From the NCBI RefSeq assembly GCF_036237315.1, contig NZ_CP108356.1, positions 3,406,501-3,470,500 on the forward strand: a stretch of 64,000 nt of DNA, in the 5' to 3' direction. A program made the translations under genes and the position numbers. The DNA is from Streptomyces sp. NBC_01351. GTDB lineage: Bacteria > Actinomycetota > Actinomycetes > Streptomycetales > Streptomycetaceae. A model generated the notes under the pieces. The model saw nothing but the letters and a program-made list of their open reading frames with translations, was not told the DNA's origin and did not search any database. Shown in pieces: positions 32,274 to 50,143 of the stretch (positions are counted from its first letter, which is position 1; each line of letters opens with the position of its first letter).

Positions 32274-32747
32274 TCAGTCCCGGGCCCGGCGGCGGGCCTC
32301 GGCGGCGGCCGGTACGTCGGCGGGGGCCTCGGCGGGAACCTCGCCCGGGGCCGCGTCGGGCTCCAGGAACTGGCTGACCACCTTGACGAAGACCTCGCGG
32401 CGGGCCTCGGGGACGCCGAGCCACTGGGCGAAGTCCTCGATGGTGGGCCGGCGGCCGCCGGGGGGCAGGTCCTGCGAGGTCAGCGGGAGTTCCTCGGGGG
32501 CCACCCGGCCGGAGCGGATCAGCATGTCGCGCACCGAGACTCCGAGCAGCGGGGCGATCCGGCGCATGGTCTCCAGGTCGGGCATGCTCTGGCGCTGGAG
32601 CAGCCGGGTGACGGCGGCACGGTGCACCCCGGCCTCGTCCGCGATCCTCGACTTGCCGCCGCCTCGCGGGCTGTCGATGTCGTACCCGCGCTGCCGCATC
32701 AGGGTTTCCACCCAGGCCGCGAACGCGTCCAGTTCGAGAGTGCTCAT
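32274..32747 (-). CDS. XRE-family DNA-binding regulator
   Basis: The 157-residue protein has a lambda-repressor-type helix-turn-helix at residues ~12-78 (SRIADEAGVHRAAVTRLLQR), then a variable C-terminus rich in Ala/Pro. There is no peptidase or sensor domain. The ATG at 32747 has GAGGAG 7 nt upstream. It is divergent from the Wbl gene and the tail block. Its upstream region holds a palindrome (32801-32816) that could be its own operator. I infer, without proof, that it represses the tail block; it might instead be a general regulator unrelated to it. Confidence 0.8.
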   Translation of the reverse strand: MSTLELDAFAAWVETLMRQRGYDIDSPRGGGKSRIADEAGVHRAAVTRLLQRQSMPDLETMRRIAPLLGVSVRDMLIRSGRVAPEELPLTSQDLPPGGRRPTIEDFAQWLGVPEARREVFVKVVSQFLEPDAAPGEVPAEAPADVPAAAEARRRARD

Positions 32748-32800
32748 ATGCCGCTCCTCAGTCCGCAATCCGCAGTCCGCACCATGACAACACACTTTAA

Positions 32801-32816
32801 CGTGCTTGCGCGCACG
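32801..32816. promoter_or_regulatory. Palindrome upstream of the XRE gene
   Basis: CGTGC-TTGCGC-GCACG is a perfect 5-bp dyad 55-70 nt before the XRE start. On the minus strand TAAAGT lies just downstream as a possible -10. Its core TTGCGCGC also occurs in the two promoters at 32878 and 34424, so one regulator might bind all three. Confidence 0.5.
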
Positions 32817-32877
32817 GAATTACGTCTTCCACGAATCCATCACATACGGAGCTAGGGGCTGCCCCAGGCGGTCTTGA

Positions 32878-32906
32878 TTGCGCGCTCGCACGCAACGTGT
32901 CACAGT
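32878..32906 (+). promoter_or_regulatory. Candidate promoter/operator of the Wbl operon
   Basis: TTGCGC and CACAGT are 17 nt apart, with the dyad TTGCG-N8-CGCAA (32878-32895) over the -35 and spacer. The same design, nearly base for base, occurs at 34424-34452. Transcription would start near 32913, ~35 nt before the Wbl ATG. Confidence 0.6.
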
Positions 32907-32948
32907 GGCTCCGCCGTGAGCCACGGCCGTCACACCCGCGGAGTCGCC

Positions 32949-33347
32949 ATGCCCCTTGCCCCGTCCCCAGTCCACCCGACCGCCGGATCCACGCCCGCGT
33001 CGACCGCCGCGTCGCCCGTCGCGTCCGCCGCAGTGCCCGTTGCCGCGTCCACCGCCGCGCGGGTCGACGCGCCCACCGCCGTGCCGGTCGCCGCCTCGCC
33101 CGCCGTGCCCTGGCCGTGGCAGGACTCCGCCGCCTGCGCCGGCCTCCCGCCCGCCGTCGTCTTCACCAAGCGGGCCAAGGTCGCGGCCCCCGCCCTGCGC
33201 GCCTGCGCCGTCTGCCCCGTCCGGCGCGAGTGCGAGCAGGCCGTCGCACCGGCCCAGAGCTGGTTCGACGGGGTCTGCGGCGGCCGCCTGTGGCGCAACG
33301 GCCGGCCCGCCGCCCTCGCCTCGTCCTCCGGGAGCCCCCGTGTCTGA
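32949..33347 (+). CDS. WhiB-like (Wbl) iron-sulfur regulator
   Basis: The 132-residue protein has the Wbl cluster ligands C63, C86, C89 and C95 (C-x22-C-x2-C-x5-C) and a GVCGG turn (108-112) where most members have GVWGG. These bind a [4Fe-4S] cluster and act on promoters through the sigma factor region 4. Residues 1-55 are an Ala/Pro/Val-rich low-complexity extension. The ATG at 32949 has GGAG upstream. The stop overlaps the next gene by 8 nt. Wbl genes are common on actinophages, so it may be the block's activator or a redox-linked switch. Confidence 0.82.
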   Translation: MPLAPSPVHPTAGSTPASTAASPVASAAVPVAASTAARVDAPTAVPVAASPAVPWPWQDSAACAGLPPAVVFTKRAKVAAPALRACAVCPVRRECEQAVAPAQSWFDGVCGGRLWRNGRPAALASSSGSPRV

Positions 33348-34050
33348 CCGCAGCACCGGCCACACCGCCCTGTGGATCGCCTCGCTGATCCGCCACTTCC
33401 CCGAACTGTGCGAGGAGCTGGCCCCCGGCCGCGCCGCCCCCTCCTCCTTCCACGTGCCCGCCCCCCGCACCCCGCGCGACGACGAGCTCGTCCGCGAGGA
33501 GCGGCGCGAGGCGCTGCTTCTCCAGCAGCGCCACGGCCTGGCGGTCCCCGGCCACGGCTCCGCCCCGGTCCGGCTGCACGTGTCCGACACCATCCGGGAC
33601 ATCACCGACGGCGTGGTCGAGCTGGAAGAGGCCGTGTGCGCCCGGCTCGGCATCCCGCGGCCCCGCCGCGCGCCGGTGCCGGAGCGGCTGCGGCGCCTCG
33701 CCGGGCTGCTGGCCGAGATCGAGGCGCAGCCCGTCCTGGCACGGCACGTGCGCGACGAGACCCGCCGGATGGCCCGCCGCTGCGCCCGCGTGCTCGGCGA
33801 CACCGAGCAGGTGGTGCGGGTCTCGGGGCGCTGCCCCTGGTGCGACTCCGTCTCGCTGCGCGCCTTCCCCGACCGCCGTGCCGTGCTGTGCGTGAACCCG
33901 GCCTGCCGGTGCACCGCCGAGGACTGCGGCTGCCACGACGATCCCGCCTACCGCCACCTGTGGCCCGAGACCGAGTGGGCCACGCTGGCCGCCGAATCGG
34001 GCTGCCGCACCGAGGAACTCGACTCCGCGATGGAAGGCACCCCGCAGTGA
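33340..34050 (+). CDS. Cys-rich protein of unknown function, possible zinc-binding regulator
   Basis: The 236-residue protein has a helical N-terminal ~155 residues and a cysteine cluster: C165, C168, C184, C189, C191, C196, C198 and H199. CPWC followed by CVNPAC suggests one zinc ribbon, with more ligands behind. I do not recognise the family. The GTG at 33340 has GGGAG upstream and lies inside the Wbl gene (8-nt overlap); its stop overlaps the next gene by 3 nt. Such coupling supports one regulatory operon. Confidence 0.68.
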   Translation: MSDRSTGHTALWIASLIRHFPELCEELAPGRAAPSSFHVPAPRTPRDDELVREERREALLLQQRHGLAVPGHGSAPVRLHVSDTIRDITDGVVELEEAVCARLGIPRPRRAPVPERLRRLAGLLAEIEAQPVLARHVRDETRRMARRCARVLGDTEQVVRVSGRCPWCDSVSLRAFPDRRAVLCVNPACRCTAEDCGCHDDPAYRHLWPETEWATLAAESGCRTEELDSAMEGTPQ

Positions 34051-34250
34051 TCTCCTCCTTCTCCCCGCTCCCCTCCCTGATCCCCGGCCCGGTGGCCGCC
34101 CACGAAGCCGGGGTCGCCCCGGCCACCATCCGCAAGTGGGTCCAGTTGGGCCGGCTCACGGCGGCGGGCAAGGCGGGGCGCGCGCAGCTGTTCCGGCTGG
34201 AGGACGTGTTCGCCGCCGAGCGCGCCGCCAGCCGGCGCCTCCCCGCCTGA
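34047..34250 (+). CDS. Small MerR/excisionase-like HTH protein
   Basis: The 67-residue protein has a winged-helix-like pattern: VAAHEAGVAPATIRKWVQLG is the helix-turn-helix, then GRAQLFRLEDVFAAER resembles the wing and last helix of AlpA/Xis-type proteins. It could be an excisionase relative or transcription factor; with no integrase nearby, regulation is more likely. The GTG at 34047 overlaps the previous stop (GTGA). Confidence 0.75.
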   Translation: MISSFSPLPSLIPGPVAAHEAGVAPATIRKWVQLGRLTAAGKAGRAQLFRLEDVFAAERAASRRLPA

Positions 34251-34285
34251 CCCCGCGCCACCCGCACCCAGTGCCCGGTACCGCC

Positions 34286-34352
34286 CGTACATACGAACGC
34301 CGGATGCCCGGTCTCCCCCGTGGAGGCCGGGCATCCGGCGTTCGTGCGTACG
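34286..34352 (+). terminator. Very long hairpin after the regulatory operon
   Basis: The 26-nt arms at 34286-34311 and 34327-34352 pair with only two mismatches around a 15-nt loop; the inner core is ACGCCGGATGCCCGG. It lies 36 nt past the HTH gene and 72 nt before the promoter at 34424, so it probably insulates the two operons. The rest of the 34251-34586 gap holds no gene. Confidence 0.8.
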
Positions 34353-34423
34353 AGGGGGCGCGCGTGGGACCCGTACGGAAAGAGCCGCGCGGGCAGCTCG
34401 TAAGAACCGACCGCCCGAACTTG

Positions 34424-34452
34424 TTGCGCGCGCGCACGCAACGTGTCACAGT
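34424..34452 (+). promoter_or_regulatory. Candidate promoter/operator of the tail operon
   Basis: TTGCGC and CACAGT, 17 nt apart, with the dyad TTGCG-N8-CGCAA at 34424-34441. It matches the Wbl promoter at 32878 at nearly every position. Start would be near 34459, ~128 nt before the first tail gene. Confidence 0.6.
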
Positions 34453-34586
34453 TGGTGCAGCGGCAGAGCTGCGCCCGCAGGACGGGCGGCGGCCGGCCGC
34501 TCCCCCCGCCGGGCGGTGCCCGTCCCCCGCCCCCCCTTCGGGCACCGCCCGGCATCCCCGCCACCCACCAGCTGAGGTGATCCGTC

Positions 34587-34994
34587 GTGACCACTCCCCC
34601 GAGTGCCTTCCCCGACGTCGAGGCCCTGGTCGTCGACGTCCTCAAGGCCGACCCCGCGCTGTCCGCGGCCACCGTCGCCGTGGAGCCGCCCGCCGGCTTC
34701 AACGGCACGCAGGCGGCCGTCCTGGTCAACCGCCGCGGCGGCGCCTGGACAGGTGACCTGCACGTCGACATGCCGCTGATCGAGCTGGAGGTGTACGGCC
34801 CGAGCAAGGCGGCCGCCCACACCCTGGCCAACGCCGCGCGCCGCGCCCTGCTCGCCACCCTCGGCAAGCGGGTCGGCGTGAACACCTTCACCGACGTCGT
34901 CGAGTACGACGGCCCGCGCTGGCTGCCCGACTACCTCTACACCGCGGCCAACCGCTACACCTGCGTGCTCCAGGTGTCCCTGAGCGTCTTCTGA
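34587..34994 (+). CDS. Phage tail terminator / tail completion-like protein
   Basis: The 135-residue protein resembles the small proteins that cap the tail tube of siphophages (DUF3168/gpU-like): an N-terminal helix, the GGAWTGDLHVDMPLIELEVYG strand region, then a helix with AHTLANAARRALL. Such a protein fixes tube length and in phages joins head to tail. The GTG at 34587 has GAGGTGA upstream. It is first in the tail operon, directly before the tube gene. No head-tail connector precedes it. The family is inferred from pattern and position. Confidence 0.6.
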   Translation: MTTPPSAFPDVEALVVDVLKADPALSAATVAVEPPAGFNGTQAAVLVNRRGGAWTGDLHVDMPLIELEVYGPSKAAAHTLANAARRALLATLGKRVGVNTFTDVVEYDGPRWLPDYLYTAANRYTCVLQVSLSVF

Positions 34995-35008
34995 CGCCCC
35001 CACAGACC

Positions 35009-35103: not shown

Positions 35104-35706
35104 ATGGCAGGAAACTCGTCCGAGATCCGCGTCGCCGGTAGCGGCCGCCTCTTCGTCGCCGCCGCCGGTACGGCCCTTCCGACCGCCTTCACCGGTGCTC
35201 CGGACACCGACTGGGGCGCCAACTGGAAGGACCTCGGCTACACCACCGCCGACGGCGTCACCTTCTCCAAGAAGGACAAGCTGGAGCCGGTCGACTCGTG
35301 GCAGGCCGTCAGCCCGGTCCACTTCACGTACTCCGACCGGGACCTGTCCCTGAAGTTCTCGCTGCTCCAGTTCAACGAGCTGACGCTGCCGTTCTTCATG
35401 GGCGGTGGCGCGGTGGCCGACGAGGCGACCCCGTCCAACGGCATCTACCGCTACGACATCGCCGACTCCCCGAAGGCGGACACCCGCGCCCTCGGCATGG
35501 AGTTCACCGACACCAAGGCGAGCAACGGCACCGTCGTGACCTACCGCTTCTACATCCCGCGCGGCCAGGTCACCGCCTCCGACGACATCAAGCTGGCCCG
35601 CAAGTCGGCCTCCACGCTGGGCGTCACCTTCACCGCCCTGCACTCGGGCGACGACAAGCCGCTGGCCAGCTTCATCATGAAGGACAGCGCGTACGCCGCC
35701 GGCTGA
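35104..35706 (+). CDS. Major tail tube protein
   Basis: The 200-residue protein looks like a siphophage tail tube subunit: an N-terminal GSGRLFVAAAGTALPT strand pair, the LGYTTADGVTFSKKDK motif common in actinophage tube proteins, and a beta-rich body. Many copies stack as hexameric rings. AAGGAG lies 9 nt before the ATG, a strong site fitting high expression. It is followed by the chaperone gene, the normal tail order. Confidence 0.8.
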   Translation: MAGNSSEIRVAGSGRLFVAAAGTALPTAFTGAPDTDWGANWKDLGYTTADGVTFSKKDKLEPVDSWQAVSPVHFTYSDRDLSLKFSLLQFNELTLPFFMGGGAVADEATPSNGIYRYDIADSPKADTRALGMEFTDTKASNGTVVTYRFYIPRGQVTASDDIKLARKSASTLGVTFTALHSGDDKPLASFIMKDSAYAAG

Positions 35707-35801: not shown

Positions 35802-36092
35802 ATGGCAGGCTTCGACGTCAACGCGGCCCGCGCCCAGCGCCAGGAAGCGCTCGGGCGCACCTGGTCCTTCGAGCTGGACGGCGAGACGTACACCCTTCCC
35901 ACCGAACTTTCCCGCGCCGCGGCCAAGAGCCTGCGCAAGCTGGACGACAACGACGTGGACGGTCTGCTGCGACTCCTCCTGGGTGAGAAGCAGTTCACGC
36001 GCTTCGAGCAGCACGACGTCACGATGCAGGACATCGCCGCGATCCTCGAGGCCTACGGCAAGGAGTCCGGGCTCGGCCTGGGGGAAGGCTGA
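35802..36092 (+). CDS. Tail assembly chaperone (G-type short product)
   Basis: The 96-residue protein sits where the tail assembly chaperone lies in siphophages. It is acidic and helical past residue ~30, with LRKLDDNDVDGLLRLLLGEK. These proteins coat the tape measure before tube assembly. The ORF ends at TGA 36090-36092, and the downstream -1 frame stays open to 36511. A G-run, GGGGGAA at 36080-36086, occurs just before the stop and may be the slip site. Confidence 0.75.
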   Translation: MAGFDVNAARAQRQEALGRTWSFELDGETYTLPTELSRAAAKSLRKLDDNDVDGLLRLLLGEKQFTRFEQHDVTMQDIAAILEAYGKESGLGLGEG

Positions 36093-36511
36093 GCCTCGTC
36101 GAGTTCGTCGACGAACACGCCGAGGCCCTCGAAGCGGACCTGCTCCGCTACTACGGCAAGGACCTTCTCGACTGGCACCGCGGGGAGCTCTCCTCGCGGC
36201 GCCTCCAGGTCCTGATCAAGCACATGCCGCGGGACAGCGCCGTCAACCGGGAGCTGTTCGGTGAGGCCGCCGACTGGTCTGTGACCGATCACCTGCTGGC
36301 GGCGACCGTGGACCATCTGGCGGCCGCCAACTGGATGTTCTCCGTCGTCAACGCGGCGGAGGACTCCGACCAGCCGGATGCTCCGGAGCCGGTGCCGAGG
36401 CCGGACGGGAAGCCGTACGGCAGCTCGGACGACCTGGACTCGGAGTCGGGGGAGGCGCCGGGCACGACCGACGCCGTGTCCCCGGAAACCCTGGTCCGCT
36501 TCTTCGGCTGA
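36083..36511 (+). CDS. T-domain extension of the tail chaperone, reached by -1 frameshift
   Basis: This -1 frame continues as SLVEFVDEHAEALEADLLRY and on through the DLLDWHRGELSSRRLQVLIK region, a pattern typical of actinophage chaperone extensions. It has no start codon of its own near 36090; the first ATG is at 36224, inside the conserved part. Slippage at 36080-36086 would give a fusion of about 236 residues. The rate and exact site are inferred. The last ~60 residues are acidic and likely disordered. Confidence 0.68.
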   Translation, partial: GRLSLVEFVDEHAEALEADLLRYYGKDLLDWHRGELSSRRLQVLIKHMPRDSAVNRELFGEAADWSVTDHLLAATVDHLAAANWMFSVVNAAEDSDQPDAPEPVPRPDGKPYGSSDDLDSESGEAPGTTDAVSPETLVRFFG

Positions 36512-36541
36512 CCGACGACCGGGCTTTGCGGCCGGGTCAGC
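36507..36541. terminator. Possible convergent terminator
   Basis: GCTGACC and GGTCAGC form an outer stem, with CCGGG...CCGGG-rich sequence inside, between the chaperone gene and the opposed gene. The inner pairing is imperfect. Confidence 0.4.
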
Positions 36542-37397
36542 GGCTCTTCTCGGGGACCTCGGGGCGGCTCGCGCCGCCCCGGGTCTCCATTTCCGTCGCC
36601 AGAGCCCGAGCCCTGGCGGCCAGGCTCCGCCGTTCCGGTTCCCCTGTCGTCCCCGGCCCGTCCGCCGGGTAGTCGGCGGGGGTGCCTTGCGGACGGGGCT
36701 GCACGGGTACGGATTTCAGCGGCGGCACTATGGGCCGCCCGTTGCGCCGTACGACCTTCCGGCTCGCCGGGGGCGTGCGCCGCTCGCGCGCGTCCGCGCT
36801 CGCGCGGGAGGCGACGGGCTGCGCGAGCGGCTCTGAGCCCCGTGCCTCCTCGGGCTCGGGCGCGGCCTCGACCACGCCCTCGACCGCGGCTGCGGCCTCA
36901 GCCCCTACCGCGGCTTCCACCTCACCTCTGGCATCACCCGCGGCATCGCCCCCGACCACGTCCTCGGACCGCCGGTCCAGGATCTCCTGGGCACGGCGCA
37001 TCCGCTCCTCGGTCTCCACCACCAGGGGCGACGGTTCGAGCAGCGTGGCGAACGGCAGCCGGATCACGGTGGCGCCATCGCCCTTGGCGGCGGTACGCCG
37101 GGCAGCCGTGTCCGTGCCACGGCCGCCGCCGGCAGCGTAGGCGTCGGCGACCCGCTTCTCGTACTCGCGGCGGATGCGCGGCAGTTCCTCGGACATGGCC
37201 TCGGCCCATCCGGCGGTGAAGGCGGCCGTCTCGCGGCGGTCGATCTCGGACCGCGGGATCAGGACGAGGTCCTCGGGTGCGTAGCCCGCCGCATGGACGA
37301 GTTCCGACAGGCGGGCGAACAGATGGGGCAGGTCAGGGGCCATTTCAAGCCAGTCAATGGCATGGTCACGCCTTCTGGCGCCCGTTTCCCTGTCCAT
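36537..37397 (-). CDS. Opposed gene of unknown function within the tail block
   Basis: The 286-residue protein is not recognised. Residues ~19-105 are helical and contain RETAAFTAGWAEAMSEEL. The same motif occurs in the 64-residue protein encoded just across the divergent gap (RETRAYTAGWNDALAE). The C-terminal ~180 residues are low complexity (Ala/Glu/Pro/Arg) and probably disordered. The start may be 37397 (GGAAGG upstream) or an internal ATG at 37343. It is the only tail-block gene besides the XRE gene on the minus strand, so it may be a regulator or an immunity-like accessory; neither can be shown. Confidence 0.6.
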   Translation of the reverse strand: MDRETGARRRDHAIDWLEMAPDLPHLFARLSELVHAAGYAPEDLVLIPRSEIDRRETAAFTAGWAEAMSEELPRIRREYEKRVADAYAAGGGRGTDTAARRTAAKGDGATVIRLPFATLLEPSPLVVETEERMRRAQEILDRRSEDVVGGDAAGDARGEVEAAVGAEAAAAVEGVVEAAPEPEEARGSEPLAQPVASRASADARERRTPPASRKVVRRNGRPIVPPLKSVPVQPRPQGTPADYPADGPGTTGEPERRSLAARARALATEMETRGGASRPEVPEKSR

Positions 37398-37558: not shown

Positions 37559-37588
37559 TCGACAAACATCGAACGAATGTTCCAGACT
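37559..37588 (+). promoter_or_regulatory. SOS-type promoter with LexA-like box
   Basis: TCGACA (37559-37564) and CAGACT (37583-37588), 18 nt apart, differ from TTGACA/TAGACT by one base each. The spacer holds TCGAACGAATGTTCCA (37569-37584), which matches the actinobacterial LexA core GAAC-N4-GTTC. LexA bound there would block the promoter, so transcription of 37681 onward should rise after DNA damage. A half-site GTTCGA lies at ~37602. Confidence 0.7.
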
Positions 37589-37680: not shown

Positions 37681-37875
37681 ATGACCCAGCAGGCCGAGGG
37701 ATCACCGCAGTTCACGCTCCACGACCGCCTCAGCCAGCTCCTGGACGGACCCGCCCCCCTCGACAAGAGGGCGCTCCTCGGCTCCCTGTACGCGGAGATC
37801 ACCACCCGTGAGACCCGCGCGTACACCGCCGGCTGGAACGACGCCCTCGCCGAGTCGCGGCGCCCCACGCAGTAG
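37681..37875 (+). CDS. Small helical protein of unknown function
   Basis: The 64-residue protein shares RETRAYTAGWNDALAE with the opposed gene across the gap, so the two are related in part. GGAAGG lies ~11 nt before the ATG. It is the first gene after the SOS-type promoter. A tail accessory or regulatory role is possible but there is no direct evidence. Confidence 0.62.
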   Translation: MTQQAEGSPQFTLHDRLSQLLDGPAPLDKRALLGSLYAEITTRETRAYTAGWNDALAESRRPTQ

Positions 37876-37971: not shown

Positions 37972-38952
37972 ATGGCAATCGAAGACCCCCAGCCTTCACG
38001 GGTGATAGGCCCACCACCCGAGCCGCCCAAGCCGGGAGATAAACCACCCACACCCAAGCAACTGCTCGATCTCTACCTCCAGAACCCGCCGGACCTCGTC
38101 AAGCATCTGGGCGCGGCGAACCTCGTCACGAATGTCAGCCTGGCCGCACTCCTGGAGCCCATCGCCAAGGACATCAAGGAAATCCGCGGCGAGGTAGTAA
38201 ACCCCTTCTTGGTGGAGATGCTGAAGCAACTCCGCCTCGAAGGAGCCGCCAACGCGCTCAAGAAGAGCCCCATCTACGAGGACAACCCGGATTGGTTGTG
38301 GTGGGTGGGTACCGGCATCGCCGGAATCATCGTCACCATCCTCGCCGCCCGCTTCATCGCCAAGCTCCCCGCCAGGATCGTCGGCGCCGCAAACGCCGCC
38401 GGGGACCTGACGCCGGAGCAGGTGCAGAACCTCCGCACCGAGCTCGACCTGACCAACCCGGCCCTGGCCGACTTCGTCAAGGAAGTGAGGCGGCTCCCCC
38501 GCGCCAAGGAACTGGCCGCCCGGGCGAAGGCCATCGGCACGCTCAACACGGCCGTGGCGAACCAGAACAACGGCGCGGTCGAGGCGGCCGCCGAAGCCAT
38601 CCGCAAGCTCAAGACCGCCCTCAGGAACTTCGACCACAAGAAGATCCCCCGGGACCACGCGGCGCTGACGAAGACCGCCGACGCTCTCGACAAGCTGCGA
38701 CTGGCGATCGGCCGACTGAAGCTCGATGACGTGAGGAACGCGACCTCGGCCCTGCTGCGCCTCAAGCTCGTCATCAGGAACCTCAAGCCCGAGAACATCC
38801 CCAAGTCGGGCGACATGCGCGCCGCCGCCAAGGCCGCCAACAGCCTCGACAAAGCCGCCCGCAATCTCAGGGGCTCCCTCACCCCGCTGGGTCCCGCGCT
38901 GCGGGGTGTCAGCACGGCCGCCGCGGCCACCGCCGGCGCCCTCGGCGCCTGA
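37972..38952 (+). CDS. Tape-measure-associated protein, part 1
   Basis: The 326-residue protein has a Pro-rich start (residues 8-27), a helical region, one hydrophobic segment (~108-128, WLWWVGTGIAGIIV) and then ~190 residues of Ala/Lys/Leu-rich helix with periodic LR and KL repeats. Such long helix with a membrane segment is typical of tape measure proteins, which set tail length and help DNA or the tip cross the membrane. It lies directly before two more such genes. GGAGG precedes the ATG. No known domain is recognised. Confidence 0.6.
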   Translation: MAIEDPQPSRVIGPPPEPPKPGDKPPTPKQLLDLYLQNPPDLVKHLGAANLVTNVSLAALLEPIAKDIKEIRGEVVNPFLVEMLKQLRLEGAANALKKSPIYEDNPDWLWWVGTGIAGIIVTILAARFIAKLPARIVGAANAAGDLTPEQVQNLRTELDLTNPALADFVKEVRRLPRAKELAARAKAIGTLNTAVANQNNGAVEAAAEAIRKLKTALRNFDHKKIPRDHAALTKTADALDKLRLAIGRLKLDDVRNATSALLRLKLVIRNLKPENIPKSGDMRAAAKAANSLDKAARNLRGSLTPLGPALRGVSTAAAATAGALGA

Positions 38953-41500: not shown

Positions 41501-42412
41501 ATGGCCGAGACCACCACAACCGCATACACCGCCGACCACGCACCCGGCTCACTCATCACCCAGGACGGGCAGATGCAGTGGGCCGGTCTGCTTATGGGCC
41601 CCGGCACCCCGTTCACCATCGACAAGTCGGGCCTGACCGGCTGGGAGGACCTGCCGGAGTACGACAGCTCCGACGCCGAACGCCCCACGGGGCACGGCGC
41701 CTGGCCCGGTGCCCGCTACGCCAAGCCCCGCAAGATCGGCGGCACGGTGTGGATGCTGCCCGAGCGCGGCGCCTCGCTGGCCACCGTACGGATCCTGCGC
41801 CAGGCGATGAACCTGGGTGACGAGGAGCGCTGGCTGGCGGTACGGCTGCACGGCGAGGTCCTGGCCGTGCGGGCCAGGATCAGCCAGCGGGTGCTGCCCG
41901 CCGACCGGGTGTACGCCACCCAGGGCGCGGCCAAGGCCGCCGTCCAGTGGACGGCGACCGATCCGCGCCGCTACCTGACCAGCGAGCAGAGCACCATCGT
42001 CCCGGCGCCGGAGCCGGAGAGCGGCCTCGTCTGGCCGCTGGTCTGGCCCCTCAACTGGGGCCAGGCCGCCAAGACCGGCGACGCCGGGGCCGAGAACACC
42101 GGCTCCGCCCCCACCCATCCGGTGATCACCTTCCGCGGCCCGTGCGGCACCCCCTCGGTGACCGAGCGGACCACCCGCCGCCGCCTGCGCTACGCCATCG
42201 ACCTGACGGCCGGCGACCAGCTGGTGGTCGACACCCTGGCCGGCACGGTCACCCTCAACGGCACCGCATCGCGCCGCCACACGGCCACCGCGGACAGCAG
42301 CCCCGAGGAGCTGTTCGCCTTCGAGCCGGGCGTCGCCGAGCTGTCGTTCCGCCCGGACAGCGCCGAAGAGGGCGCCTCGATGACCGTCAGCTGGCGCAGC
42401 GCGGACTGGTAG
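41501..42412 (+). CDS. Distal tail protein (Dit)-like
   Basis: The 303-residue protein has the Dit/phage tail fold pattern: a beta-rich N-terminal half with ITQDGQMQWAGLLMGPGTPF and VWMLPERGASLATVR, a W-x-ATDPRRY strand, and a C-terminal galectin-like beta domain (CGTPSVTERTTRRRLRYAID). Dit forms the hub to which fibres attach. GAGGTGA lies before the ATG. It follows the tape measures as in phages. Confidence 0.77.
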   Translation: MAETTTTAYTADHAPGSLITQDGQMQWAGLLMGPGTPFTIDKSGLTGWEDLPEYDSSDAERPTGHGAWPGARYAKPRKIGGTVWMLPERGASLATVRILRQAMNLGDEERWLAVRLHGEVLAVRARISQRVLPADRVYATQGAAKAAVQWTATDPRRYLTSEQSTIVPAPEPESGLVWPLVWPLNWGQAAKTGDAGAENTGSAPTHPVITFRGPCGTPSVTERTTRRRLRYAIDLTAGDQLVVDTLAGTVTLNGTASRRHTATADSSPEELFAFEPGVAELSFRPDSAEEGASMTVSWRSADW

Positions 42413-43716: not shown

Positions 43717-44904
43717 ATGAACCTGCGCGCCAGCTGGGTCGCACAGACCGGCCAGACCCGCGAGGACACCCGCCTCACCCAGATCGGGGCCACCACCCCG
43801 GTCGACCCGATCCGGGCCCGCTCGGGCATCCTGCCCGGCTCGTACACCGGCCAGCACCGGGTCTCCGGCTTCTGGCTGGAGGGCAAGTCCGCCATGGCCG
43901 CCACCCTCTACAACGGCCGGGCCGTCGTCCAGGGCCTGCACCCGCAGGGCGTCTACCCGCTGGCCATGATCGAGGACGCCGTCCTCACCTTCGCCGACGG
44001 CGACGCCCAGGCCGGCCGCATCGACCTGGTCTGCCTGCGCGTCTACGACGGCTCCTACGACTCCTCCAACAAGTGGCAGGCCGTCGCCGAGGTCGTCCAG
44101 GGCACCCCGTCCGCCACCCCGGTGGCGCCGCCGACCCCGCCGCTCTCCCTCGCGCTGTACACCGTCTCCGTCCCGGCCGGCACCAGCGCCGGCAAGGGCG
44201 GCATCAACTGGGGCAACGCCCTCACCGACCTCCGCGTCCCCGTCGTGTCCCTCGGCGGGATCCTGCCGGTGCTGGGCGAGGTCATCCCCGGCGCCTACCC
44301 GGGCCAGTACCAGGACGTCTCCGGCGGCGCGCTCCAGCGCTGGGACGGCAGCGCCTGGGTCTCGTACCCCTCGGCGCTCGGCGGCATCGCCCCCAAGGGC
44401 ACCCTGACCACCGCCAGTTACGTCGGCCAGTACCGGGACACCCCGCAGCGGGTGCTGCAGCGCTGGAACGGCACGGCCTGGCAGCCTGCGTTCCCGGCGC
44501 CGATCTTCGTGGAGAGCCGCGACGCGGGTACCACCACCTCGACGACGTACACCGAGACGCTCCAGGGCACCGCCGTCACCGCGGTGAAGACCACCTTCAA
44601 CGCCCCGACCTCGGGGTCGGTCCTGCTGAACTTCGGTGCCCGGACGACCAACGCCGCCAACAACGCCGCCTACGGCTACACCAGCGTGAAGGTCACCCAG
44701 GGCGCGACCGTGATCTGGGAGCCGGACGACGAACGGTCCGCGCTGCACGGCGGCGACAGGCCGTCCTCCGTCTCCACCATGCTCCGGCTCGCCTCACTGA
44801 CCGGGGACGCCCCGTACACGGTGACCGTGATGCACCGCACGAGCACGGCGGGCGTGACGACGTACTTCGACAACATCTTCCTGCGCATCGACGCGCTGTT
44901 CTGA
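43717..44904 (+). CDS. Tail fibre / receptor-binding protein 2
   Basis: The 395-residue protein has the same N-terminal module (RASWVAQTGQTREDTR) and two GQY(R/Q)D repeats, then a C-terminal domain of ~145 residues with a beta-rich pattern (FNAPTSGSVLLNFGART, YTVTVMHRTS) that is unrelated to fibre 1. It may recognise a different surface. GGAG lies before the ATG. It is 67 nt from fibre 1. Confidence 0.72.
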   Translation: MNLRASWVAQTGQTREDTRLTQIGATTPVDPIRARSGILPGSYTGQHRVSGFWLEGKSAMAATLYNGRAVVQGLHPQGVYPLAMIEDAVLTFADGDAQAGRIDLVCLRVYDGSYDSSNKWQAVAEVVQGTPSATPVAPPTPPLSLALYTVSVPAGTSAGKGGINWGNALTDLRVPVVSLGGILPVLGEVIPGAYPGQYQDVSGGALQRWDGSAWVSYPSALGGIAPKGTLTTASYVGQYRDTPQRVLQRWNGTAWQPAFPAPIFVESRDAGTTTSTTYTETLQGTAVTAVKTTFNAPTSGSVLLNFGARTTNAANNAAYGYTSVKVTQGATVIWEPDDERSALHGGDRPSSVSTMLRLASLTGDAPYTVTVMHRTSTAGVTTYFDNIFLRIDALF

Positions 44905-44918
44905 GTCTGGAGCACTCG

Positions 44919-46034
44919 ATGAACCTTCGTACCGCCTGGCTCCCCGTCACCGGCCAGACCCGCTCCGACACCCGCGTCGCCTCCCTCGGCGCCCTCACCC
45001 CCACCTCGCCCGTCGCCACCCGGTCCGGGATCCTGCCCGGCTCCAGCGACGGCAAGTGGCGGATCTCCGGATTCACCGTCACCGGCACCACCGCGATGAC
45101 CGCGACCGTCTACCCGGGCCGCGGCGTCATCCAGGGCACCGACTCCCAGGGCGCCTACCCGGTCGCCCTCACCCAGCCCGTGCCCCTGGCGTTCGCCGAC
45201 GGCCACGCCCAGTTCGGCCGGATCGACCTCATCGTGGTGCGCGTCTACGACGACGAGTACGACGCCTCCGGCCGTACCGAGGCCGTCGTGGAGGTCGTCC
45301 GGGGCACCCCGACCGCTACCCCGGTCGCCCCCGCGGCCCCGGCGCTCTCCCTCCCGCTGTACACGGTCACCGTCCCGGCCGGCACCAGCGCGGGCAACGG
45401 CGGCATCAACTGGAACAACGCCCTGACCGGCCTGCGGAACGCCACCGTGGCCATCGGCGGCATCCTGCCCGTCACCACGGACACCGCCATCGGCGCCTAC
45501 CCGGGCCAGTACCGCGACAACTCGGGCACCCTGGAGCGCTGGGACGGCACAGCCTGGATGCCCTACCCGGCGAAGCCCGCATGGCAGAACTGGACGCCGG
45601 TGTGGACCACCTTCACCGGCAACGCCACGCCCTCCTTCGGCAATGCGGAGATCACGGCCCGCTACATCCAGCAGGGCCCGACCGTGCACATGAACTTCTC
45701 CATCATGTTCGGTACCACCACCACCTTCGGTACCGGGGGCAATGCCGGCGACAACTGGCGGTTCACCCTGCCGGTCAAGGCCCTCTCCGCGACCCGGTGC
45801 GTCGGCTTCGCCGAGCTGTGGCCGGCCACGAGCCCGATGAACCGGGTCATGGCCCGGATCCGCAACACCTCGACCACCTTCTTCGAGCTGGAGATCTCCT
45901 CCGGCATGCCGAACGGCGAGACCATCACCAACAGCGGCATCACGGACGCCGTCAGCCCGTGGGGGCCGGGCACGGCCTGGGCCGCCGGCGCAAGCATCCA
46001 CGGCAGCGCCACCTACGAGGCGGCCACCCAGTGA
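44919..46034 (+). CDS. Tail fibre / receptor-binding protein 3
   Basis: The 371-residue protein has the module again (RTAWLPVTGQTRSDTR) and one GQYRD repeat. The C-terminal ~160 residues (WQNWTPVWTTFTGNATPSFG onward) differ from fibres 1 and 2 and resemble phage and bacterial receptor-tip domains. The start is the ATG at 44919; a longer reading into fibre 2 is not real. The stop overlaps the next gene (GTGA). Confidence 0.72.
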   Translation: MNLRTAWLPVTGQTRSDTRVASLGALTPTSPVATRSGILPGSSDGKWRISGFTVTGTTAMTATVYPGRGVIQGTDSQGAYPVALTQPVPLAFADGHAQFGRIDLIVVRVYDDEYDASGRTEAVVEVVRGTPTATPVAPAAPALSLPLYTVTVPAGTSAGNGGINWNNALTGLRNATVAIGGILPVTTDTAIGAYPGQYRDNSGTLERWDGTAWMPYPAKPAWQNWTPVWTTFTGNATPSFGNAEITARYIQQGPTVHMNFSIMFGTTTTFGTGGNAGDNWRFTLPVKALSATRCVGFAELWPATSPMNRVMARIRNTSTTFFELEISSGMPNGETITNSGITDAVSPWGPGTAWAAGASIHGSATYEAATQ

Positions 46035-47146
46035 GCGCCCAGACCCCCTACCGCGCGATCTTCTGCGATCTGCGCACCGACCGGACCATCGACATCCTGC
46101 CCCTGCGGGACGTCTCCATCGACGACTACATCGGCAAGCCCGGCGCCCTGTCCGGCACCATCCCGGTGCCGGACTCCGCCATCGCCACCCGCGTCGCCCG
46201 CATCGAGGAGGGCCGCACCGCGGTCTACCTGGAGCGCGGCGGCGACCTGTGGTGGGGCGGGATCATCTGGACCAGCACCCTGCAGAGCAGCGAGCGGGGC
46301 GTGGTCAGCCTCTCCATCCAGGCCGCGACCTTCGACTCGTACGCCGGCCGGCGCCGCATCCGCGACAAGATCTCCTACCCGGCTCCCGGCATCGACCAGC
46401 TTGCACTCGCCCGCGAGCTGTGGCGCAAGCTTCAGTCCGAGGAGACCCGGCTGGGCGGCAACATCGGTGTCACGTACGGGACGGAGACGTCCACCACGCT
46501 GCGGACGGGCTCGTGGCGGGACGGCGACGAGATCCTCTACTCCGAGGCGCTCGAGTCGCTGGCCACCGCGGAGAACGGCTTCGAGCACTACATCTCCGTC
46601 TTCCGCGACCCGGCGTCCGGGACCCGCACCCGCCAGCTGCGGCTCGGCAGCCCGCGCATCCACACGGGCGTCACCGATCTCGTACTGGACCGCCCCGGCG
46701 CGATCCTCTCGTACTCCTTCCCCCGCGACGCCACTCGCGGCGGCACCACCGCCCGGGCCCGCGGCGCCTCGTCCAACAACAACCAGGCCGAGGAGTCGAG
46801 GCCGAAGTTCTCGAAGGAACTGATCGACACGGACCTGATCAAGGGCGGCTGGCCGCTGATCGACCTGTCGACGGACCACAACGAGGCCTTCGACGAGACC
46901 ACCCTGGACTCCCTCGCCAAGGCCGAACTGGCCCGGGCCCGGGGCGCGGTGATCATCCCTGCGATCACCATCCGGCTGGGCGATGTCGTACCCCCGACGC
47001 TGCTCGGCCGGACCGTCCGCATCCGGATCACCGACGAGTGGTTCTCGCAGGGGCTCGACGCCCGCTACCGGATCATCGGCGTCAAGGTCACCCCGCCGGA
47101 GCGGGGCCGTCCGGACACCGCCGAGCTCTACCTTGAGGAGGTCTGA
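46031..47146 (+). CDS. Tail-associated / baseplate hub protein (Gp37-like)
   Basis: The 371-residue protein fits the siphophage hub family found in actinophages: an N-terminal beta domain with FCDLRTDRTIDILPL, a WWGGIIW motif, and a helix-strand core (GITVTYGTETST-like). It should sit at the tail tip, below Dit. There is no lysozyme or peptidase signature. The GTG at 46031 overlaps fibre 3; the stop overlaps the next ATG (TGATG). Confidence 0.72.
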   Translation: MSAQTPYRAIFCDLRTDRTIDILPLRDVSIDDYIGKPGALSGTIPVPDSAIATRVARIEEGRTAVYLERGGDLWWGGIIWTSTLQSSERGVVSLSIQAATFDSYAGRRRIRDKISYPAPGIDQLALARELWRKLQSEETRLGGNIGVTYGTETSTTLRTGSWRDGDEILYSEALESLATAENGFEHYISVFRDPASGTRTRQLRLGSPRIHTGVTDLVLDRPGAILSYSFPRDATRGGTTARARGASSNNNQAEESRPKFSKELIDTDLIKGGWPLIDLSTDHNEAFDETTLDSLAKAELARARGAVIIPAITIRLGDVVPPTLLGRTVRIRITDEWFSQGLDARYRIIGVKVTPPERGRPDTAELYLEEV

Positions 47147-47862
47147 TGCCCCAGCTGCCCGAGGACATCATCGACCGGCTGACCGCGATGGAACGCCGGA
47201 TCCAGCAGCTGTCCACGGCCGTCAACACCCGCCCCGCGCTGAACACCATCTCGGGCGGCGAGGTCAAGATCAGCGACGGCGGCTCCCTGTCCGTCGTCGA
47301 ACCCGTCAACGGCACCAAGATCCTCGGCGTCGGCGCCTGGTCCCCGACCGAGTACGGCCTGGAGATCAAGCGCAAGAGCGGCAAGACCGTGCTGAGCGTG
47401 CGCAACGTCGTCACCGGCGACTACGACCAGGCCTTCCGCGTCTTCGACTCGTTCAACAACGAGATCCTCGCCGACGACGTGGTCACCGGCGGCCTCGCCC
47501 GCCCCTGGCTGTCCATGCTGCCGCCGCAGGACACCAGCACCACCCGCTGGCCGCAGACCAACGCGACCGGCTGGACCACCGTCGCCCGCTCGTTCAACCC
47601 GCTCTGGCAGCCCAAGATGCGGCTCTACTGCCTCACGGCGGCGGCCGCCGGGGTCACCGGCAAGATCCGGGTCCTCGTCGACGGCGAGACGTGGGGCCCC
47701 GAGGTCACCACCCCGACGGTCTTCGACAACACAGGCAAGGTCGTCCCGGACTTCAACGCCCGGTTCGGCAGCGTGGTCAAGATCGAGATCCAGGCGATGG
47801 TCACGGCCGGCACGGGCCTCGTCTACGTCCAGCCGATGATGCACTACGGCACCCAAAGCTAG
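47146..47862 (+). CDS. Tail tip / fibre-like protein
   Basis: The 238-residue protein has a coiled-coil N-terminus (residues 5-28), then VKISDGGSLSVVEPVNGTKI and a beta-rich body. This is a common layout in small fibre or tail-tip proteins; the coil likely forms a trimer. It starts by overlap with the hub gene. Family is inferred. Confidence 0.62.
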   Translation: MPQLPEDIIDRLTAMERRIQQLSTAVNTRPALNTISGGEVKISDGGSLSVVEPVNGTKILGVGAWSPTEYGLEIKRKSGKTVLSVRNVVTGDYDQAFRVFDSFNNEILADDVVTGGLARPWLSMLPPQDTSTTRWPQTNATGWTTVARSFNPLWQPKMRLYCLTAAAAGVTGKIRVLVDGETWGPEVTTPTVFDNTGKVVPDFNARFGSVVKIEIQAMVTAGTGLVYVQPMMHYGTQS

Positions 47863-47875
47863 GGAGGAGAAACCC

Positions 47876-48241
47876 ATGAACATCGACCCGACCCTGCCCT
47901 GGGGCATCGCCATCGACTACGCGGGCCGCGCGACCGTCATCGAGGACGGCCACACCATCCAGGTCCGCGTGTACGACGCCGGCCTCGGCGGCACCCTCGA
48001 ACCGGACCCGGTCAGCGGCTACCCGGCGGTGTACGTCACCGCCCAGTTCACCGAGAACGGCGACCTCGGCGCCCAGCTCCGCGGCTCCGGCCAGGTGATC
48101 CTCAACCCGCCGCCCACGGGCCCGGTCCTCCCCGACCAGACGGCGGTCGCCGAAGCGGTCGCAGCGTCCCTGGCGGACTTCGGGTCCCGCGTAGCGGCGT
48201 ACACCACCCTCTGCTCCACGTTCACCCCCACAACCCCGTAG
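47876..48241 (+). CDS. Small protein of unknown function, tail-block accessory
   Basis: The 121-residue protein is not recognised. It is acidic, with strands near GIAIDYAGRATVIEDGHTIQ and a helix near VAEAVAASLADFG. AGGGAGG precedes the ATG by ~7 nt. It is the last gene before the repeat cluster. It might help attach fibres, but there is no direct evidence. Confidence 0.55.
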   Translation: MNIDPTLPWGIAIDYAGRATVIEDGHTIQVRVYDAGLGGTLEPDPVSGYPAVYVTAQFTENGDLGAQLRGSGQVILNPPPTGPVLPDQTAVAEAVAASLADFGSRVAAYTTLCSTFTPTTP

Positions 48242-48269
48242 CCATACCCAGCCCCGCCAGGGCATACGC

Positions 48270-48537
48270 AGCCCCGCCGGCGTTTGAGGCGCGGGGCCCG
48301 GGCCGAAGCCCCAGCAGCGACTCCGCGCCCAACCCCCACGCACACCACCCGGGCCGCACCTCCACTCCCGCCGAGCCACAATCCAGCCCCGCCGGCGTTT
48401 GAGGCGCGGGGCCCGGGGCGGAGCCCCAGCAGCGGCGCCGCACCCACCCACCACGCCGCCCCAAAACCCAGCCCCGCCGGCGTTTGAGGCGCGGGGCCCG
48501 GGGCGGAGCCCCGGCAGCGGCGCCGCACCCACCCACC
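48270..48537. repeat. Three copies of a GC-rich intergenic repeat
   Basis: Copies begin at 48270, 48385 and 48470 with core AGCCCCGCCGGCGTTTGAGG followed by CGCGGGGCCCGGG. The last two are almost identical over ~65 nt. This element is familiar from Streptomyces intergenic DNA and can fold into a GC hairpin, so it may end the tail operon. The 48242-48617 gap holds no gene. Confidence 0.85.
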
Positions 48538-48617
48538 GGCCCCGCACCCACCCGCACGGCAAACCCACAGCCCCGAGCCCCCCCGGCCGGGGCTTCCGCA
48601 TGCCCGAAGGAGACACC

Positions 48618-49523
48618 ATGGCCACCCCACTCAGCGCCGACACCCTCCTCAACGCGCTCCGCGCAGAAGGCGTCCGCATCCAGGAACACCCCGGCTGGCG
48701 CACCCACAACCGCAACCACAAGGGCGCCTGGGGCCCCGTCAACGGCATCGTGATCCACCACACCGTCAGCACCGGCTCCGCCTCCAGCGTGGCCCTCTGC
48801 CGCGACGGCTACTCCGAGCTCCCCGGCCCGCTCTGCCACGGCGTGATCGACAAGGCCGGCATCGTCCACCTGATCGGCCACGGCCGCACCAACCACGCCG
48901 GTCTCGGCGACGGCGACGTCCTCGACGCCGTCGCCGCCGAGACCACCCTCCCCGCCCCCCGCCGCAACGACACCGACGGAAACGCCCACTTCTACGGCTT
49001 CGAGTGCGTCAACCTCGGCAACGGCAGCGACCCCTGGCCGGACGCCCAGCTCGACGCCATCGAGCGCGCCTCCGCCGCCCTGTGCCGCGCACACGGCTGG
49101 CAGGCCGCCTCCGTGATCGGCCACAAGGAGTGGACCGGCACCAAGGTCGACCCGCGCGGCTTCACGATGGAGTCGATGCGCGCCCGCATCAAGGCCCGCC
49201 TCGGCGGCGCCCCGGGCAGCGACGCCCCGAGCGGCGGCGGCACCACCACCCCGCCCTCCCCCTCGGCCCCGCGCTACCAGCCCTTCCCGGGCGCCGGCTT
49301 CTTCACCGCCTCCCCGAACTCCCCGATCGTGACCGCCATGGGCCACCGCCTGGTCGCCGAGGGCTGCTCGGCCTACTCGGTCGGCCCCGGCCCCCGCTGG
49401 TCGGAGGCCGACCGCCGTTCGTACGCCCGCTGGCAGCAGAAGCTCGGCTTCAGCGGCTCCGACGCCGACGGCTGGCCGGGCCGCACCTCCTGGGACGCCC
49501 TGAAGGTCCCGCACTCCGGCTGA
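48618..49523 (+). CDS. Endolysin: N-acetylmuramoyl-L-alanine amidase with C-terminal wall-binding domain
   Basis: The 301-residue protein has an Amidase_2 domain at ~20-195 with H47/H48 (GIVIHHTV) and H169 (IGHKEW) as likely zinc ligands and K176. A linker (204-222, Gly/Ser/Pro/Thr) follows. The C-terminal ~75 residues (GWPGRTSWDALKVP near the end) resemble the wall-binding domain of Streptomyces phage lysins. There is no signal peptide, so it would need a holin. AAGGAG lies before the ATG. Confidence 0.85.
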   Translation: MATPLSADTLLNALRAEGVRIQEHPGWRTHNRNHKGAWGPVNGIVIHHTVSTGSASSVALCRDGYSELPGPLCHGVIDKAGIVHLIGHGRTNHAGLGDGDVLDAVAAETTLPAPRRNDTDGNAHFYGFECVNLGNGSDPWPDAQLDAIERASAALCRAHGWQAASVIGHKEWTGTKVDPRGFTMESMRARIKARLGGAPGSDAPSGGGTTTPPSPSAPRYQPFPGAGFFTASPNSPIVTAMGHRLVAEGCSAYSVGPGPRWSEADRRSYARWQQKLGFSGSDADGWPGRTSWDALKVPHSG

Positions 49524-49574
49524 CCCCCACGCAGCTGACCCCCACGCACCACCGCACCACGAAAGAAGGCCCCC

Positions 49575-49892
49575 ATGTCCGACGCCGCCAAGCGCACCCT
49601 CCGCACCATCGTCCAGACCGCCCTGGCCATCGCCGTACTCCTGCCCGCCGTCGTCGACGCCTCCGGCGTCCCCGCCACGCTCCCCTGGGTGGCCGCCGCC
49701 CTCGCCGCGGCCGGCGCCCTCGCCCGGGTGATGGCCGTACCCGGCGTCCAGGCCGTACTGCCCGGCTGGCTGCGCACGGAATGGCCGTACGACAGGGACC
49801 GCGCGCTCCTGGCCCTCATCACCAGCGAAGCCCACGCCACCCGCGCCGACCGCGCCGACCACGCGACCCGCGAGGAAGGCGACCACGCATGA
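49575..49892 (+). CDS. Holin-like membrane protein
   Basis: The 105-residue protein has two hydrophobic segments (~13-30 and ~35-53) and a charged C-terminus, the layout of small holins. It lies 51 nt after the endolysin and overlaps the next gene by 4 nt. The family cannot be confirmed from sequence alone. Confidence 0.7.
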   Translation: MSDAAKRTLRTIVQTALAIAVLLPAVVDASGVPATLPWVAAALAAAGALARVMAVPGVQAVLPGWLRTEWPYDRDRALLALITSEAHATRADRADHATREEGDHA

Positions 49893-50143
49893 CCGACCCC
49901 GATCCGCTCTCCGTCGCCGTGGAGCTGGAACGGCTGCGCGGAACCATGGAAGCCGGCTTCGCCCGCGTCGACGGTTCGCTCGCGCTGCTCGTGCAGCGCA
50001 GCGACCAGACGGACCGGCAGCTCGCCGACCACGAGACCCGCCTCGACGCCCTGGAGCGCTCGCGCTGGCCACTCGCCAGTGTGACGGCGCTCGCGGCCGT
50101 CTCCGCGGTGGTCGTGACCGCCTGGCAGATCAGCGGCCAGTAG
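49889..50143 (+). CDS. Small membrane protein with coiled coil, holin-like partner
   Basis: The 84-residue protein has a helical, coiled-coil-prone N-terminus (residues 8-60) and one hydrophobic segment (~63-80). It resembles the second small lysis protein of actinophages (DUF2746-like). The ATG overlaps the holin stop (ATGA). It is the last gene of the block. Confidence 0.62.
   Translation: MTDPDPLSVAVELERLRGTMEAGFARVDGSLALLVQRSDQTDRQLADHETRLDALERSRWPLASVTALAAVSAVVVTAWQISGQ

Follow-up and report, generated by a model that had tools for sequence, protein, structure and literature searches.

In a window of 64,000 nucleotides (nt) from Streptomyces sp. NBC_01351 (NZ_CP108356.1; the window is the whole stretch of DNA analyzed, and all positions refer to it), we analyzed a gene cluster at positions 32274-50143. 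We conclude that this cluster is probably a domesticated siphophage tail without a head, which would make it a DNA-damage-induced flexible (F-type) tailocin of Streptomyces. The candidate F-type tailocin proposed in the initial annotation is well supported in the sense of a headless, probably damage-inducible tail accompanied by a lysis cassette, whereas the formation of particles and the killing are predicted from the genes. We counted in favor of a headless tailocin the broad distribution of the cluster, the absence of a relative in viral contigs, the mostly constant protein lengths, the selection acting on the genes, the frameshift site, the operator, and the LexA boxes.

Tail and lysis genes and their distribution

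The cluster consists of a plus-strand tail array with a regulatory block ahead of it, flanked by rpsL (31567-31938, minus strand) and rpoC (52842-56741, minus strand). PHROG and Pfam profile searches of the window proteins recovered a siphophage tail that runs from the terminator to the lysis genes and follows the phage order, as had been proposed. The non-contractile tail module (all on the plus strand) starts with a tail terminator (34587-34994; phrog_123, E value of 9.2e-21), the tail tube protein (35104-35706; PF25681, E value of 2e-60, 204 bits for a cutoff of 27; phrog_117, E value of 4.7e-39), and the short form of a tail assembly chaperone (35802-36092; phrog_10551, E value of 1.6e-28). 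A slippery heptamer, GGGGGAA (36080-36086), is a candidate -1 frameshift site leading into a long chaperone that ends at 36511, and the C-terminal part of this long form (36224-36511) matched chaperone C termini (phrog_3656, phrog_1326, and phrog_393). Further downstream are a poorly conserved, variable protein with one membrane segment recognized by eye, which is possibly tape-measure associated (37972-38952; weak match to phrog_16773), two short tape-measure-like proteins of 399 and 426 residues (38989-40188 and 40185-41465; phrog_3981, E values of 1.8e-25 and 2.3e-19), the distal tail protein (Dit; 41501-42412; phrog_5577, E value of 1.2e-79; PF22768 above cutoff), three putative fibre or receptor-binding proteins (42456-43649, 43717-44904, and 44919-46034), the tail hub or minor tail protein (46031-47146; phrog_1885, E value of 6.3e-62), and a probable tail-tip accessory protein (47146-47862; phrog_9849, E value of 2.7e-54). 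The fibres matched phrog_3398 (E value of 3e-54 at the N terminus of the first, 3.3e-59 and 1e-67 for the second and third), and the C terminus of the first gave a weak BclA_C match under the cutoff. The fibre PHROGs, phrog_3398 and others, are categorized as "head and packaging" and described as virion structural protein; we did not count them as head, because they stand at the fibre position, as does gp18 of phage SV1.

The array ends with an N-acetylmuramoyl-L-alanine amidase endolysin (48618-49523; Amidase_2, PF01510, 79.3 bits for a cutoff of 26; phrog_880, E value of 7.5e-76) and two membrane proteins with a putative holin role (49575-49892, phrog_4316, positioned as SV1 gp22; 49892-50143, phrog_5225, E value of 1.7e-29), both from families without an assigned function. 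Judging from position and from inspection by eye, these three genes would form a lysis cassette for release. The tail genes called initially stood as a set, with amendments at the third fibre (44919-46034), the hub start (near 46031), and the -1 frameshift site of the chaperone. No sheath, spike, or AAA+ ATPase family was found among the profile matches of the window cluster, in agreement with the earlier exclusion of a contractile injection system. A PDB sequence search with the tube alignment gave no match.

To describe the relatives, we used a sample of 295 Streptomyces genomes and a phylum sample of 396 genomes. The tail tube was found in 77 of the 295 Streptomyces genomes at an E value of 1e-5 and in 55 at no less than 45% identity (the window included; the tube of G008 is in two pieces). 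Dit had a match in 91 of the 295, distant matches including ordinary prophages. In the phylum sample, the tube matched 4 of 396 genomes, namely, the window's own, one congener at 27%, and two at 37 to 38%. Our locus set was built from 52 of the 55 tube genomes (without G008, G024, and G201) and from G166 and G073, recovered via Dit; with two loci from G012, it comprises 55 loci in 54 genomes. The window's class, defined by a Dit match above 48%, holds 34 of the 55. A second class (class II) comprises 14 loci with regulators and shares the regulators, the terminator, the tube, the chaperones, and usually the amidase and holin with the window, and it has no close Dit or hub; in profile searches, the class II loci L095 and L107 showed one short tape measure and different tip genes. 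Five loci (L096 to L100) carry the tail without these regulators (five open reading frames [ORFs] upstream in L097 are of host type), and two (L102 and L110) are partial. A separate named scan, which overlaps the main locus set, covered the best 80 of 167 relatives in genome contigs; 76 of these 80 had Streptomyces titles, and the others were Actinobacteria bacterium OV320, Microtetraspora, Kitasatospora, and Kibdelosporangium. No tube relative was found in viral contigs, where SV1 Dit, used as a positive control, gave 7 loci. The tube matched 37 phage records, with 28 to 31% identity among the 20 matches listed, and gave 4 weak matches (26 to 35%) in plasmid records.

The tape-measure-like proteins are short throughout, with a median of 397 residues in 53 loci and of 422.5 residues for the second copy in the 34 window-class loci. 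By their coordinates, phage tape measures have 1,161 residues in mu1/6, 1,604 in Kromp, and 805 in SV1, which has a single one where the window has two, of 399 and 426 residues. The tape measures of two class II loci align at their N-terminal part with the beginning of one long profile and at their C-terminal part with the ends of others, suggesting a loss of the middle portion. The plain prediction from these lengths is that the tail would be very short. At about 0.15 nm per residue, it would measure about 60 nm with a single tape measure setting the length and about 170 nm with the proteins of 326, 399, and 426 residues all stacked.

Between L046 and L047, one fibre is 93 to 100% identical over its first 240 residues and 47 to 60% identical thereafter, the tube, Dit, and hub being 92 to 98% identical; between the window and L031, fibre 1 is 45% and the tube 92% identical. 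There are thus indications that the divergence of the fibre C termini reflects a switching of specificity. We treat these fibre patterns as indications and not as proof because the orthology of the fibres is uncertain.

Regulators, LexA boxes, and probable induction by DNA damage

The regulatory block comprises a helix-turn-helix (HTH) repressor-like protein (32274-32795, minus strand; phrog_3949 transcriptional repressor, E value of 1.7e-12; HTH_3, 25.6 bits for a cutoff of 23) that is divergent from a WhiB-like transcription factor (32949-33347, plus strand; PF02467, 29.5 bits for a cutoff of 23.6; phrog_472 WhiB, E value of 5.7e-11). Own regulators had been proposed for the cluster, and the WhiB gene had to be added to the earlier calls. 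The WhiB gene is followed on the same strand by a conserved protein with a cysteine-rich C terminus that looks zinc-ribbon-like by eye (33373-34050; only a weak match to phrog_7575, Pfam not having been searched), which was found in 68 of the 80 named-scan relatives, and by a small MerR/HTH-type regulator (34050-34247; phrog_2474 MerR-like, E value of 2e-12; PF00376 under its cutoff). The weak matches of the latter to the small-terminase families phrog_141 and phrog_57 (E values of about 0.003) fall on its HTH. An inverted repeat with 36-nt arms (34281-34357) is probably a terminator ending the regulatory operon.

Two copies of a 29-nt direct repeat, 97% identical, lie at 32878-32906 and, upstream of the tail operon, at 34424-34452. 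Both contain the putative operator TTGCGYGCNNGCRCGCAA (32878-32895 in the first copy), an exact 18-bp palindrome. Allowing up to 2 mismatches, the window has 2 sites for 0.17 expected, the motif having been picked from these very sites. At the same tolerance, 34 of 39 regulator regions contain the palindrome, as do 26 of 52 regions preceding the tail terminator gene. Because the motif was derived from these loci, the remainder of their DNA (about 1.06 Mb in total) served as the control, and it contributed 3 unassigned sites.

A LexA (SOS) box, GAACGAATGTTC (37571-37582), lies inside the tail array between two divergent genes, one on the minus strand (36537-37397) and a small one on the plus strand (37681-37875) that starts about 100 bp downstream of the box; the initial gene calls around the box were amended accordingly. 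The product of the first has an N-terminal motif, RRETxAFTxGW, and a 27-row alignment with invariant residues, and it has a domain (RET-x-A[F/Y]TAGW) in common with the 64-residue product of the second. No match was found for the former in PHROG, NCBIfam, PADLOC, or PDB (Pfam was not searched), nor for the latter in NCBIfam or PADLOC (PHROG and Pfam were not searched). The two may possibly form an antirepressor pair.

The LexA core GAACNNNNGTTC occurs 36 times in the approximately 1.06 Mb of locus DNA. A box preceded the 36537-37397 homologue in 14 of 20 loci, for 0.18 expected from shuffles. The gap between the repressor and WhiB genes had one in 8 of 14 class II loci, for 0.07 expected, and in none of 22 window-class loci. 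Ahead of the terminator gene, the box was seen in 1 of 52 loci. In the named-scan set, 22 of 43 loci had the box at the 36537-37397 homologue, and 1 of 28 other loci had it in the repressor-WhiB gap. Each LexA layout therefore holds for subgroups and not for all loci, since the box is missing in part of each set.

We then compared these sites with the published mitomycin C response of Streptomyces venezuelae. Table 1 of PMC9380542 gives a 526-fold upregulation for vnz_21525 and a 190-fold upregulation for vnz_21545/vnz_21550 with mitomycin C, and the paper describes these genes as having LexA chromatin immunoprecipitation (ChIP) peaks, as a "predicted prophage cluster" and as being among the most upregulated LexA targets. 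Genome G015 has exact copies of both SOS boxes given there, TCGAACACCGGCGC and TCGAACACAAGGCC, in its locus L047: one lies between the divergent genes and the other 184 bp before the Dit start (published as -174). Furthermore, the starts of the homologous genes in L047 are 305 bp apart, equal to the published 123 plus 182 bp. A stronger LexA core, GAACAGATGTTC, lies in L047 about 100 bp before the small gene. On these grounds, we take G015 to be S. venezuelae or closely related to it; the pattern TCGAACGTTTGACG, tried as a marker for this identity, was uninformative, as it was found in 7 of 9 genomes tried. The mitomycin-induced cluster of S. venezuelae is thus very probably orthologous to the one described here and would be among the LexA targets with the highest induction after mitomycin C. 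The portions of PMC9380542 considered here speak of prophage genes, one of them a "phage tail fiber protein", and not of a headless tail. A LexA-type site upstream of Dit, as in the published S. venezuelae box, was not found in the window. Taken together, the LexA boxes and the published induction, with genes matched by sequence, support a cluster that would be inducible by DNA damage.

Such induction would also suit a headless tail and lysis device serving an internal purpose, i.e., SOS-triggered programmed lysis, developmental cell death, or phage protection, and not the killing of competitors. A phage-protection role has reportedly been proposed for the contractile system of S. coelicolor. 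The LexA boxes and the WhiB-type regulator fit this explanation, as do the links reported between Streptomyces contractile injection systems and the death and development of the producer (PMC10066040 and PMC10020575, as far as these sources were covered). However, three fibre genes and the C-terminal switching of one fibre in close relatives point to changing external targets, and lysis genes lie downstream in the same array. We thus consider an internal purpose unlikely, and favor the F-type tailocin.

Conservation, genomic site, and head genes

The core genes are largely intact and evolve under purifying selection. The terminator measures 133 to 137 residues in 52 loci, the chaperone 95 to 97 residues in 52 of 54, and the hub 362 to 394 residues in 38, with few short outliers, some of them at the ends of stretches. 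Internal stops were found in 5 of 490 gene-locus alignments covering 11 genes (best aligned stretch only), namely, in the tube of L071, the tape measure of L094, and the repressors of L036, L043, and L105. The ratio of nonsynonymous to synonymous substitution rates (dN/dS), determined for seven close pairs, was mostly 0.1 to 0.5 for the terminator, tube, chaperone, first tape measure, Dit, and amidase, reaching at most 0.8 in very close pairs; maxima were 0.75 for the second tape measure, 0.72 for the hub, and 1.3 for the fibres, and the holin-like gene at 49892-50143 gave 0.05 to 0.20 in all 7 pairs. Moreover, 53 of 54 loci (all except L093) retain GGGGGAA ahead of the chaperone stop, and the -1 frame is open for 127 to 169 residues past that stop in 54 loci (measured from another stop in L093).

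The claim that all genes look intact held for the near-constant core lengths, the selection, and the 5 stops in 490 alignments, and failed for some damaged copies. In G166, the cluster (L058) lies at the site without regulators, terminator, and tube genes, a naturally damaged copy. In G012 (L034 and L110), 3.8 Mb separate rpsL from rpoC, and the tail genes lie in separate parts across about 170 kb, by rearrangement or misassembly. G224 has frame breaks, probably from assembly, and G008 has its tube in two pieces. Widespread decay in relatives had been set in advance as a ground for giving up the tailocin; the lengths and the rarity of internal stops speak against it. The similarities of tube and Dit disagree between pairs (97% and 84% for L037-L048, 83% and 98% for L046-L048), and parts of the cluster therefore seem to have been exchanged.

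The initial annotation had placed the cluster at a fixed site between essential operons. This did not hold, and the rpsL-rpoC site is a preferred one: rpsL or rpoC lies within the retrieved stretch in 26 of the 34 window-class loci and 30 of the 55 overall (some stretches end at contig ends), and rpsL lies within the stretch in 54 of the best 80 named-scan loci. A single fixed site was rejected, several class II loci and L096 to L100 showing neither gene. The comparison of the interval across Streptomyces that had been suggested likewise pointed to a preferred site. It drew on 95 genomes with both positions among the matches listed, ranked by similarity to the window and hence not random. The interval measured 16.7 to 22.6 kb in 12 of the 15 genomes with a close Dit (exceptions, G259, G041, and the rearranged G012), and its median in the other 80 was 1.5 kb, with four above 15 kb: G231, with a divergent family member, and G155, G127, and G173, without a match to the window's tail genes. 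Short intervals lacking the cluster are common even at 99 to 100% identical RpoC ends.

A decaying prophage remnant that lost its head genes by chance would account for the patchy distribution, for the damaged copies in G166, G012, and perhaps G008, and for the Dit, hub, and fibres that SV1-type phages have in common with the cluster. It is disfavored by the mostly constant lengths, the purifying selection, and the frameshift, operator, and LexA boxes kept across deep divergence, and no headed member was found in the 54 fetched or 80 named-scan loci, nor any relative in viral contigs. We regard it as very improbable.

The initial annotation had also seen no portal, capsid, protease, terminase, or integrase. 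This was borne out at the locus, where no convincing head or integrase family occurs among the listed genes between rpsL and rpoC, several of which match no family. In the strain's own genome, no match was found to PF04586 (S78 protease), PF04860 (portal), PF05065 (HK97 capsid), or PF03354 (terminase), other head families not having been searched; PF03354 is an insensitive probe, with matches in 3 of 60 Streptomyces genomes. Head queries from SV1, Kromp, and mu1/6 matched 0 of the 54 fetched cluster loci and 0 of the 80 named-scan loci (overlapping sets, in which heads outside the stretches would be missed). As positive controls, the SV1-type prophages L064 and L067 to L070 were matched, L065 gave a weak portal, and L066 gave nothing. 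No integration gene was found in the cluster loci with the SV1 integrase, the one integrase query used, and eight ORFs in the flanks of three loci are of host type. Head genes co-varying with the cluster had been the other ground set in advance for giving up the tailocin, and no such co-variation was observed: the HK97 capsid occurs in 9 of 30 genomes with it and 8 of 30 without it.

The terminator is retained, so that a head could in principle dock, and the cluster could be a tail-only partner completing another prophage, a satellite, or a gene transfer agent with its head elsewhere. The strain's own genome, without a match to the four head families, and the lack of capsid co-variation argue against a head supplied elsewhere, and we find such a partner highly unlikely. 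A temperate siphophage of the SV1 type was rejected, as terminase, portal, capsid, and integrase were not found with queries that detected the controls L064 and L067 to L070.

Several points weigh against the F-type tailocin or the data used for it. Particles, killing, and lysis are deduced from gene content; the distribution of the cluster is patchy, even between genomes whose RpoC is nearly identical; and some loci (G166 and G012) are damaged. The operator motif was derived from the very loci in which it was counted, and the loci are related, so that motif and LexA counts are not independent. A strict LexA box is absent in 6 of 20 regions at the 36537-37397 homologue, 6 of 14 repressor-WhiB gaps of class II, 21 of 43 named-scan loci, and 27 of 28 repressor-WhiB gaps of the other named-scan loci. 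For S. venezuelae, the identity of G015 is itself inferred, G270 has one published box exactly and the other with 1 mismatch, and the single published offsets of -123, -182, and -174 compare with measured values of 105, 200, and 184, the first two differing by 18. Finally, the fibre 1 query showed no C-terminal switch between L046 and L047 (90 to 100% identity throughout), and the queries for fibres 2 and 3 appear to match the same frame in both loci.

Proposed mechanism and comparison with known systems

We propose the following mechanism for the tailocin. At rest, the HTH repressor would sit on the palindromic operators located before the WhiB operon and the tail operon. DNA damage would remove LexA from the box controlling the 64-residue/36537-37397 pair in much of the window's class and, in part of class II, from a box controlling the WhiB gene itself. 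WhiB and the MerR-like protein might then activate the tail operon. The -1 frameshift would yield two chaperone forms, and tube subunits would polymerize along the short tape measures, giving a short tail with the terminator as its cap. The amidase and the two holin-like proteins would burst the producing hypha and release the particles. Fibres with exchangeable C termini would choose the target, most likely other actinomycetes, which, by analogy with known tailocins, would die by membrane depolarization. A more specific version, which we offer tentatively and hold to be rather doubtful, is a distinct actinobacterial tailocin with a very short flexible tail and a tape measure of about 400 residues, duplicated in the window's class, one copy setting the length and the other being a delivered pore or effector, and with LexA directly controlling WhiB or the antirepressor-like pair located within the tail operon.

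F-type tailocins are known as a kind; as far as we have seen, what is new here is the lineage, its control, and the short doubled tape measures. Our literature search, outside which lay most papers from bioRxiv and subscription journals, found no description of a non-contractile tailocin in Streptomyces or in other Actinobacteria, and a report could be in print elsewhere. Pyocins are controlled via RecA and PrtR-PrtN, and the Streptomyces cluster differs by its LexA boxes and WhiB. A close parallel is with the Listeria monocins (ftb cluster), for which the parts of PMC7076858 considered here describe a headless siphophage-type tail with a downstream holin-lysin cassette, SOS-inducing conditions, and a single region in a Gram-positive genome. 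However, monocins are related to phage A118 and the Streptomyces cluster to actinophages, and WhiB, the 18-bp palindrome, the LexA boxes, the doubled short tape measures, and the patchy presence across species set the latter apart. F-pyocins and rhizoviticin, the F-type tailocins of Proteobacteria, are likewise non-contractile headless tails (PMC10811719 and PMC8910223, in the parts covered), as predicted here for the Streptomyces cluster; F-pyocins are of lambda-type origin, and the targets of these tailocins are Gram-negative. The Streptomyces contractile injection systems, or SLPs, are also phage-tail-like devices of Streptomyces but belong to the contractile family, and their control is reported to be bldA dependent in the sections of PMC8910223 considered, in contrast to the LexA boxes of the tail cluster.

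Among phages, SV1 (Picardvirus; NC_018848) is informative: the window Dit is 44.7% identical to that of SV1, the hubs of relatives are 39 to 50% identical, and the gene order follows SV1 from the connector gp12 to gp23 (two genes after the endolysin), with extra genes in the cluster. SV1 has TerL, portal, capsid, and integrase, none of which was found in the cluster, and the SV1 tail tube query matched none of the cluster loci.

If the proposal is correct, the best-known antibiotic producers would turn out to have a non-contractile tail weapon, in about 1 in 5 of the sampled species (55 of 295), and the nature of some of the most mitomycin-induced LexA targets of S. venezuelae would be explained. 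The question of what Streptomyces hyphae set free after damage, and which bacteria this kills, would become directly testable in a standard laboratory strain. The fibres, with their signs of a switch in specificity, would represent a natural set directed at Gram-positive soil bacteria.

A small protein at 47876-48241 (plus strand) is confined to part of the window's class, being present in 18 of 33 loci (L031 to L063) and in 0 of 7 prophage-type loci (L064 to L070). Between the cluster and rpoC, the YfhO-family membrane protein (50289-52751) was rejected as part of the system and is a host gene of the clade, because it is next to rpsL in L075, L076, L078, and L079, which come from related genomes that lack the cluster at this site; L074, whose stretch begins after rpsL, also carries it. 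In L072, L073, and L074, rpsL-rpoC intervals of 15 to 20 kb have no match to the window's tail genes, and the interval therefore accepts other long inserts too. In L101 and L102, the tail genes adjoin rpoC in the opposite orientation, convergent with the regulatory block in L101, so that tail and regulatory modules can be inverted relative to each other. In G213, a NACHT-domain protein lies directly upstream of the cluster (L060, 4195-6285). On the other side of the rpsL-fusA genes, the window carries sugar-nucleotide and glycosyltransferase genes (22681-26954), namely, a family-2 glycosyltransferase (22681-23565), an RmlD-type gene (24928-26034), and a nucleotidyl transferase (26076-26954), possibly a surface-polymer locus, and, at 18026-20668 on the minus strand, a gene for an 880-residue protein with an Amidase_2 domain.

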